Shown: piece by piece, positions 24,083 to 26,324 of the stretch
Layout of the letters: each line of letters begins with the position of its first letter
Position numbering within the stretch: the stretch's first letter is position 1
Program-made: the position numbers and the translations under genes
The notes under the pieces: generated by a model
The model's database searches: none
Told to the model about the DNA's origin: nothing
The model's input: only the letters and a program-made list of their open reading frames with translations
Assembly: GCF_012034175.1 (NCBI RefSeq)
Contig: NZ_JAATEJ010000012.1
Coordinates: 124,001-188,000 of the forward strand
Direction of reading: 5' to 3'
From: Actinacidiphila epipremni
GTDB taxonomy: Bacteria > Actinomycetota > Actinomycetes > Streptomycetales > Streptomycetaceae
DNA length: 64,000 nucleotides

Positions 24083-24760
24083 TCAGTGGCCCGCGGCGGC
24101 GGCCTCCGCGCGGGCGGCGTCGCGTATGCCGGTCACGACCATGTCCACCCCGCGGTCGAAGTACAACTCCGGGTCCGAGCACGCCGCGAGGGTGTCCGCG
24201 GCGGCGACGATGTGCGGATAGCGGCGCGGCGACAGCGCGAGCAGCGTCGCGCGCTTGGCGCGCACCTCGTCCTCGCGCGCCTCCGGGTCGGGGCCGGGCA
24301 GCGGCACGGGCGCCGCGAGGGCGAGCGCGACCAGCGAGCCCAGGATCTGGCTCGCGCACTCGGCGCTGCGCTCGGCCGACATACCGCCCTGCGCCATCAG
24401 CTCCAGCGACCGCTCGGTGACGGCCAGGCCCGGCTCGGTGGTGACCATGCCCTGGAAGACCAGCAGCGCGGCGTTCGGGTGCGGGCGCAGCGCGTCGACG
24501 AAGTTGCCGAGCAGGTCGCGCAGTTGCTCGTACCAGGGCCGGTCGTCCGGCGCGGGCAGCACGGTGCCGGCCAGCAGCCGCTCGGCGATCGCGAGCAGCA
24601 GCCCGTCCTTGTCCTCGAAGTGCCGGTAGAGGGCCATCGGGGTGACGCCGTGCAGCTGCGCGACCCGGCGGACGGTGACCGCGTCCAGCCCCTCGGCGTC
24701 CGCGACGGCCAGTGCGGTGGTGACCAGGTCGTCGCGGTTCAAACGCTTCTGCGCCGCCAT
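24083..24760 (-). CDS. TetR-family repressor of the divergent DHA2 efflux gene
   Basis: A 225-residue TetR-type regulator. The N-terminal helix-turn-helix (about 8-55) reads DLVTTALAVADAEGLDAVTVRRVAQLHGVTPMALYRHFEDKDGLL. The C-terminal part resembles TetR_C (tetracycline repressor class) and would bind a small-molecule inducer. The ATG at 24760 is followed by AAQKRLNR. It diverges from an MFS drug exporter gene with 136 bp between them, the classic repressor/pump layout, and the gap contains at least three 15-bp operator-like sites. Autoregulation together with repression of the pump is therefore likely. Confidence 0.9.
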   Translation of the reverse strand: MAAQKRLNRDDLVTTALAVADAEGLDAVTVRRVAQLHGVTPMALYRHFEDKDGLLLAIAERLLAGTVLPAPDDRPWYEQLRDLLGNFVDALRPHPNAALLVFQGMVTTEPGLAVTERSLELMAQGGMSAERSAECASQILGSLVALALAAPVPLPGPDPEAREDEVRAKRATLLALSPRRYPHIVAAADTLAACSDPELYFDRGVDMVVTGIRDAARAEAAAAGH

Positions 24761-24801: not shown

Positions 24802-24881
24802 GTCTACAGCGTACACAGGCGGCGGAGGTTTACATCGTAAGCTCTGCCTGTATGGTTGCGCTGTAAGCATACGCTGTAAAC
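24802..24881. promoter_or_regulatory. Array of TetR-type operators on a 13-bp grid
   Basis: Four 15-bp copies of a GTTTAC-N3-GTAAAC-like palindrome lie between tetR and the efflux gene: GTCTACAGCGTACAC (24802-24816), GTTTACATCGTAAGC (24828-24842), a weaker one read on the minus strand at 24854-24868 (GCTTACAGCGCAACC), and GTTTACAGCGTATGC on the minus strand at 24867-24881. Starts are 26, 26 and 13 bp apart. They cover the region where both promoters must lie, so TetR binding would silence both genes. Confidence 0.75.
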
Positions 24882-24896: not shown

Positions 24897-26324
24897 ATGC
24901 GACGCAGTCCCTGGGCCACGCTCACCGTGCTGGCCCTCGCCCAGTTCATCGTGGTGCTCGACGTGACGATCGTGAACGTCGCGCTGCCCCACATCCAGAC
25001 CGACCTCGGCTTCACCCCCGACGGCCTGCAATGGGTCATCAGCGCCTACACCCTGGTCTTCGGCGGCTTCCTGCTGCTCGGCGGGCGGGCCGCCGACCTG
25101 CTCGGGCCGCGCCGCGTCTTCGTCGCCGGCCTGGTGCTGTTCGGCGTGACCTCGCTCGCCGGGGGCCTGGCCGGCTCACCCGGGCTGCTGATCGCCGCCC
25201 GTACCGTGCAGGGCCTCGGCGGCGCCCTGCTCTCGCCCGCCGCGCTCGGCATCCTCACCGTGACCTTCCCGCGCGGCCGCGAGCGCAACATCGCCATGAG
25301 CGTGTGGGGCGGCCTGGCCGGCCTCGGCGGCACCCTCGGCGTCGTCGCCGGCGGCTTCCTCGTGGACTCGCTGAGCTGGCGCTGGGTCTTCATCGTCAAC
25401 GTGCCGATCGTCGTCGCGCTGGTCGCCGTCACCCCGCTGCTCGTCCCGCACATCAAGCCGCACGCGGGCAACCGCTCCTTCGACCTGCTGGGCGCGCTGC
25501 TGGCCACCGGCGGGCTGCTCGCCGTCGTCTACGCGGTCGTGCGCGCCGAACCGCTCGGCTGGTCCTCCGCCGAGGTCGTCGGCTGCCTGGCCGGCGGGGT
25601 GCTGCTGCTCGTCGCCTTCGTCCTCGTCGAGACCCGCACCGACGCGCCGCTGGTGCCGATGCGGCTGCTGCGCTCGCGCGCCCTGAGCAGCTCGGGCGGC
25701 GCCATCGCGCTGACCGGCGCGGGCTTCCTGTCGATGTTCTACCTGACCGCGATCTTCCTGCAGCAGGTGCGCGGCGACAGCGCGCTGCGGGCCGGCGTGG
25801 AATTCCTGCCGATGGGCGGCGCGGCCATCGCCTCCGCGGTGCTCGCCACCCCGCTCATCCACCGCTTCGGCACCCGCCCGGTGCAGACCGCCGGCACCCT
25901 GCTCGGCGCCGCGGGGCTGCTGCTGCTCTCCCGGGCCGACGCCACCGGCGCGTACGCGAGCCAGATCCTGCCCGGCACGGTGCTGTTCGGCATCGGCATC
26001 ATCGCGGTGTCCGTGCCGGCGCAGATCGCCGCCGTCGTCGAGGTCAAGGACACCGACGCGGGCGCCGCCTCCGGGGTCTTCACCGCCTTCCAGCAGGTCG
26101 GCGGCGCGGTCGGCCTTGCCGTCGTCACCACGCTCGCCACCTCCCGCACCACCCACGCCCTGACCACCGGCGCCACGCAGTCCGACGCCCTGGTCGCCGG
26201 CTTCCACCGCGGCCTGCTGATCGCGGCGGCCTTCTGCGCCGGCACCTTCCTGGTCACCCTCTTCTTCTCCCCGCGGCTCGCCCCGACCGCCGACCAGATC
26301 GCCGGCGCGGCGGCAGCGGCGTAA
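24897..26324 (+). CDS. DHA2-family MFS drug exporter (EmrB/QacA type)
   Basis: A 475-residue, 14-helix proton-driven multidrug exporter. Helix 1 has the DHA2 signature FIVVLDVTIVNVALPHIQTDL; motif A is GGRAADLLGPRRV, and the motif C-like segment is near GGLAGLGGTLGVVAGGFL. The ATG at 24897 has TTGAGG 5 nt upstream. Expression is probably held off by the divergent TetR until a substrate binds it. The transcript ends at the hairpin at 26326-26369. The substrate cannot be inferred; antibiotics and dyes are typical of the family. Confidence 0.92.
   Translation: MRRSPWATLTVLALAQFIVVLDVTIVNVALPHIQTDLGFTPDGLQWVISAYTLVFGGFLLLGGRAADLLGPRRVFVAGLVLFGVTSLAGGLAGSPGLLIAARTVQGLGGALLSPAALGILTVTFPRGRERNIAMSVWGGLAGLGGTLGVVAGGFLVDSLSWRWVFIVNVPIVVALVAVTPLLVPHIKPHAGNRSFDLLGALLATGGLLAVVYAVVRAEPLGWSSAEVVGCLAGGVLLLVAFVLVETRTDAPLVPMRLLRSRALSSSGGAIALTGAGFLSMFYLTAIFLQQVRGDSALRAGVEFLPMGGAAIASAVLATPLIHRFGTRPVQTAGTLLGAAGLLLLSRADATGAYASQILPGTVLFGIGIIAVSVPAQIAAVVEVKDTDAGAASGVFTAFQQVGGAVGLAVVTTLATSRTTHALTTGATQSDALVAGFHRGLLIAAAFCAGTFLVTLFFSPRLAPTADQIAGAAAAA

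Follow-up and report, generated by a model that had tools for sequence, protein, structure and literature searches.

A ladder of operator half-sites with a 13-bp pitch spans the predicted promoter of an efflux-type pump in Actinacidiphila epipremni, and it recurs across much of the genus beside the same divergent pair of tetR and pump genes. Within the window (the whole stretch of DNA that was analyzed, 64,000 nucleotides), the ladder occupies 54 bp (24828..24881, plus strand) of the 136-bp region between the two genes, which also holds a palindromic site nearer to tetR. From the sequence, we assign a probability of roughly 0.6 to the reading that the regulator is an autorepressor whose dimers would lie side by side every 13 bp on the pump promoter and would bind a separate site on the tetR side.

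The regulator, encoded on the minus strand at 24083..24760, is a 225-aa protein that scores above the cut-offs for both TetR_N (PF00440, 40.8 bits against 24) and TetR_C_1 (PF02909, 38.2 bits against 21). Its N-terminal HTH and TetR_C_1 core, together with its fold matches, place it in the TetR family (TetR_C_1 type). It is not the tetracycline repressor TetR proper, reaching 61.2 bits against a cut-off of 265 on the NCBIfam equivalog NF010319. An AlphaFold2 model of the regulator, based on an alignment of 23 regulators from which L005, L012, and L063 were excluded, has a pLDDT of 91.1, and its nearest folds include ActR (2opt/3b6a/3b6c) at ranks 1 to 6 and SCO7222 at rank 8. The gene on the other side of the intergenic region, at 24897..26324 on the plus strand, encodes an MFS efflux-type transporter (PF07690) of the DHA2/EmrB subfamily (TIGR00711, 236.3 bits; cut-off, 230.2), which is the predicted pump. 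The locus thus has the layout of a divergent TetR-pump pair with palindromic sites in between.

The sequence-only reading had described four TetR operators on a 13-bp grid, and re-matching the consensus GTTTACNNNGTAAAC reproduced their coordinates and their offsets of 26, 26, and 13 bp exactly, as well as the overlap of the last two by two bases (24867-24868). The sites at 24802, 24828, 24854, and 24867 differ from the consensus by two, one, three, and two mismatches, respectively. At up to three mismatches the 64-kb window holds eight matches against 1.64 expected, a number equaled in none of 100 shuffles; at up to two mismatches it holds only those at 24802, 24828, and 24867, and none of 2,000 shuffles put three such matches into the 136-bp intergenic region. 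Across the organism's own genome, GTNTACRNCGTANNC has four matches, three of which are these sites. Site 1 (GTCTACAGCGTACAC, 24802..24816, plus strand) is a predicted operator proximal to tetR, 41 bp ahead of its start codon. Site 2 (GTTTACATCGTAAGC, 24828..24842, plus strand), also a predicted operator, carries a -35-like hexamer inside its left half. This hexamer (24829-24834) and a -10 box (24851-24856) make up the predicted pump promoter, TTTACA-16-TATGGT (24829..24856, plus strand), the one promoter found in a consensus scan in which 0.1 were expected. Site 4 (GCATACGCTGTAAAC, 24867..24881, plus strand) is a third predicted operator, located downstream of the -10 box.

Between sites 2 and 4 the candidate dyads are weaker. 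Site 3 (24854..24868, plus strand) has a conserved right half, GTAAGC, and a poor left half, GGTTGC, that overlaps the -10 box; it falls below the 6-bit threshold of the position weight matrix (PWM) in the window and is at most a weak candidate. Of the four operators originally proposed, then, three are strong, but the one at 24854 is not. Overlooked in the sequence-only reading was a further right half-site, GTATGG (24850..24855, plus strand), which is in register inside the -10 box and inseparable from the -10 itself. With it, the ladder of right half-sites is complete, with GTA at 24837, 24850, 24863, and 24876, while two of the four possible dyads in the 54 bp are weak. All five plus-strand GTAs of the intergenic region, including the one at 24811 that belongs to site 1, share a single phase modulo 13, an arrangement reached in none of 5,000 shuffles. 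The remark that this spacing runs out of phase with the helix is correct as arithmetic, 13, 26, and 39 bp corresponding to 86, 171, and 257 degrees.

Conservation of the sites was followed through a survey of 35 genomes of the genus, the organism's own included. At E<=1e-60, tetR is present in 20 of them, and the pump adjoins it in 18 of these 20. Among 28 related loci retrieved, L031-L035, whose intergenic regions equal those of L002, L006, L008, L011, and L012, were left out of the counts, and the remaining 23 were unused. Sites in each region were scored with a PWM derived from the remaining ones, for which shuffles gave means of 0.04 to 0.18 hits per region; since the orthologues are related, the counts below are not independent of one another. 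The tetR-side site 1, site 2, and site 4 were found in all 18 pump-linked regions, the weakest being site 1 of L011 (8.9 bits), site 4 of L012 (9.2 bits), and site 2 of L008 (9.7 bits). A site of at least 6 bits in the position of site 3 or close to it occurs in 8 of 18; in L019 this site is located two units ahead of site 4. Split into halves, site 3 exceeds the 95% background on the right in 17 of 18 regions and on the left in 7, and its triplet is GTA in 15. The left partner of the half-site in the -10 box exceeds that background in none of the 18.

The promoter box TGTATGGT, an anchor picked after the sequences had been read, is present in 16 of the 18 pump-linked regions, with one-base variants in L009 and L019. 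(In L009 the start of the pump copy, or its sequence, is uncertain: an ATA aligns with the pump ATG, and the tblastn match is split between residues 1-86 and 241-463.) Downstream, a column count of 13 orthologues, which excluded L011, L012, L014, L019, and L020, showed no variation in the 11 bases GTAAGCATACG (24863-24873), with flanks 0.42 and 0.29 identical. The same 11 bases are present in 15 of 18 regions when L011 and L019, which carry them in shifted positions, are included. In L012, CAACGCTTATC replaces them despite a 39-bp spacing, and L014 and L020 have GAA in place of the site 3 GTA, with GTAs at -13/-14, +1, and +28 that form no clean ladder.

Distances between sites separate the pump-promoter block from site 1. 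From site 2 to site 4 the distance is 39 bp in 14 of 18 regions, 40 in L011, 41 in L014, 42 in L020, and 54 in L019; these departures reflect a change beside the -10 box or an extra 13-bp unit, with the 13-bp step between the final two units preserved. In L019, the interval from the -10 box to site 4 is longer by 13 bp, and that ahead of the -10 by 2 bp. L011 and L012 have an additional site 13 bp past site 4, scoring 14.4 and 9.8 bits. From site 1 to site 2, by comparison, 7 of the 18 regions, those of the closest relatives, have 26 bp, and the others 34 to 111 bp. The 13-bp grid that had been proposed for all four sites is therefore supported for the block at 24828-24881 but not for site 1, which lies anywhere between 26 and 111 bp from site 2. 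The ladder also goes where the gene pair goes: in G019 (L013) and G026 (L015), where no pump was detected at E<=1e-100 in the assemblies searched, tetR is kept and the promoter box and full ladder are gone. L013 retains two strong sites, one with a partial site 13 bp on, and L015 a single weak one. By eye, the gene downstream in L013 resembles a small multidrug-resistance-type transporter.

The period can be read from these regions in several ways. With the -10 box as the anchor, right half-sites score above zero on average at -12, +1, +14, and +27; a further positive position, -21, corresponds to the second arm of site 2. Of 173 pairs of GTAs between -25 and +50 of the anchor in the 18 orthologues, 98 are in 13-bp phase, and the other moduli tried (8-12 and 14-20) account for 0 to 12. 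A motif-free lag scan of 20 regions (the 18 pump-linked ones plus L013 and L015, with L013, L015, L017, and L018 cut at 250 bases) gave its highest mean excess self-similarity at lags 13 (3.93), 26 (3.66), and 39 (3.30), the next being 1.14. The signal in single regions is uneven. Region by region, lag 13 gives p >= 0.05 for six of the 18 (L012, L014, L017, L018, L019, and L020), as well as for L013 and L015, and when judged against any lag from 6 to 45, p <= 0.05 is reached in only 5 of 18 (L001, L003, L009, L011, and L016). The plainest ladder is that of L009, with four successive units and scores of 19, 13, and 12 at lags 39, 26, and 13.

Beyond these orthologues, the 13-bp period was found upstream in three of five more distant relatives examined, L059, L063, and L060, whose regulators are 48, 47, and 39% identical to that of the window. 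None of 300 shuffles matched lag 13 in any of the three, and p over any lag from 6 to 45 was 0.00, 0.03, and 0.17, respectively. By eye, the units of L059 and L063 start with GAAC-like half-sites, not TAC. A pitch that stays the same while the half-sites differ suggests selection on the spacing. No pump match was found within the 3.6-kb locus of L059; L063 is a second tetR-pump pair of G007 (G007:C12), with a pump 74% identical to that of the window. The lag test gave no 13-bp period in L061 and L062 (regulators 34 to 36% identical), and inspection by eye revealed no evident array in L064 and L108. L061 and L062 have GAACNNNGTTC-like sites upstream of the related regulators, with self-similarity peaks at lags 18, 19, and 37. 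Such relatives are sparse: among 394 family genomes, 24 had the tetR at E<=1e-24, and 4 of those 24 belong to other genera. A query with the L059 protein recovered 2 of the 295 genomes in the L059 genus at E<=1e-35, its source genome among them.

From this arrangement, we infer binding by the TetR-family protein, side-by-side occupancy, repression, and induction. The protein would repress both its own gene and the pump. One dimer would bind at site 1 near tetR, and others would occupy two strong dyads, one covering the -35 element (site 2) and one immediately past the -10 box (site 4). One or two weaker dimers may sit between these, each on a single good half-site, GTATGG within the -10 box or the GTAAGC that belongs to site 3, with contacts to neighbors helping to hold them. 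Adjacent sites would have two base pairs in common at their edges and be turned by about 86 degrees around the helix, such that the dimers jointly cover the -35, the -10, and the start region. A ligand, probably a pump substrate, would release them. The ordered multi-dimer complex suggested in the sequence-only reading is the likeliest account of the pump-promoter block, although the data do not support a complete operator at 24854. The chief uncertainty concerns the half-site in the -10 box and the left half of site 3: these may be bound, or three separate operators may suffice. We further speculate, more tentatively, that TetR-family dimers can form an extensible row of touching units at a constant step of 13 bp (86 degrees). 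The core promoter, including its -10 box, would serve as one rung, and the pitch would be set by protein contacts and kept as half-sites change among relatives; we regard this general form as possible but doubtful.

The usual picture of a TetR-family repressor has one dimer, or two, bound to isolated palindromes. Regulation by TetR proteins from multiple operators is already known, and published accounts offer several partial parallels. EthR of Mycobacterium tuberculosis is described as binding a 55-bp operator with repeats as a cooperative homo-octamer (PMC9210681). It resembles the present case in the length and repeats of its operator, and 55 bp for four dimers is, by division, 13.75 bp per dimer; however, its operator consists of two direct and two inverted repeats, and the portion of the account consulted includes no promoter-spanning 13-bp ladder (PMC9210681). 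DarR of Rhodococcus and Mycobacterium, in which two touching dimers bind overlapping palindromes with one subunit on a poor half-site, provides a structural precedent for a weak half-site held by a neighboring dimer, but it is described there with a 20-bp site, two dimers only, and the operator ATACT-N4-AGTAT (PMC10636190). ActR and SCO7222 of Streptomyces coelicolor, among the nearest folds of the regulator model, each form three protein-DNA complexes on a divergent intergenic region, and the neighbor of ActR, ActA, is an MFS pump; their operator sequences are other than those of the window (PMC3511530). The tetracycline-resistance TetR likewise belongs to a divergent regulator-pump pair and represses both promoters from its operators, which are two in number and form no contiguous array (PMC3511530). 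QacR, CgmR, and RolR also place more than one dimer on an operator, but on sites of 28 to 32 bp with two dimers, as summarized in the EthR source (PMC9210681).

A search of the open-licence literature found no tandem or 13-bp TetR systems and none with four operators, and the titles and abstract openings available there for Actinacidiphila and TetR contained nothing on this system. Nor did we find in that literature a description of a promoter-embedded 13-bp ladder that extends across much of a genus, gains units, and is echoed in relatives with other half-sites. If the side-by-side reading is true, a 13-bp pitch held across the genus and in some distant relatives with other half-sites would make dimer-dimer contacts a selected part of repression. 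The pitch would also provide a simple handle for finding such operators in genomes, and the compact repeat could be used for building steep switches. Under the same condition, the packing of eight EthR subunits on 55 bp would become approachable in a harmless soil actinomycete system.

A more conventional explanation is that the region holds three ordinary, independent TetR operators, the promoter fixing site 2 (through the -35) and the -10 box, and site 4 having settled 39 bp on by chance. Sites 1, 2, and 4 are indeed the only strong dyads, a -35-like hexamer does lie within site 2, GTATGG could resemble a half-site by chance, and multi-operator systems have precedent. Nevertheless, promoters do not usually contain an element such as GTAAGC at 24863, yet 15 of 18 regions preserve its GTA; the further 13-bp units of L011, L012, and L019 and the period in relatives with other half-sites also count against independent operators, and we consider this explanation unlikely, if far from negligible. 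The ladder might instead have been left behind by tandem duplication of a 13-bp unit, only some copies now being under selection; unit number varies (L011, L012, and L019), and a 13-bp direct repeat (CGCTGTAAGCATA / CGCTGTAAACACC) is readable in the window, where lag 13 ranks first. Unselected copies, on the other hand, should drift out of register, and the 13-bp step persists in most orthologues, even at protein identities as low as about 53%, which makes a mere relic improbable. Repeated duplication, which the sequence-only reading had offered as one of two explanations, may be how the units originated, an origin compatible with present use; the constancy of pitch under changing half-sites is what would point beyond it to selection for spacing.

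It is more improbable still that a regulator other than this TetR binds the block. The same operator adjoins tetR as site 1, three of the four operator matches in the organism's own genome are here, and the intact ladder accompanies the tetR-pump pair. What favors another regulator is that pairs of TACNNNGTA at this pitch are not specific to this TetR: exact pairs occur 13 bp apart in 173 of 297 family genomes, including one in the organism's own genome before a PadR-like gene, and 14 bp apart in 101 of 297. We tried the 13-bp pitch pattern as a genome-wide identifier and rejected it as non-discriminating. Because such pairs are widespread in the family, the pattern alone is insufficient to identify the system, and the evidence for the pitch therefore rests on the orthologues and near relatives. 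Among the 13-bp matches listed, many, spread over many family genomes, share a TACTCGGTATACATACTGAGTA-like sequence and for that reason are probably the sites of another regulator, and the only orthologous locus is L011 (G007), since at the others the left half of site 3 is incomplete. Several of the 14-bp matches listed are 7-bp tandem repeats. The 13-bp pair in the organism's own genome, TACTCGGTATACATACTGAGTA (L069 1501-1522; G000:C25:315313-315334), lies right before the start of a gene that we take, by eye, to be PadR-like. A 14-bp pair, TACGGTGTATAGTTTACGGTGTA (L097 1501-1523; G000:C24:53026-53048), is located between genes that by eye are ABC-ATPase-like and alpha/beta-hydrolase-like, and several members of the genus have 14-bp pairs like it among the matches listed.
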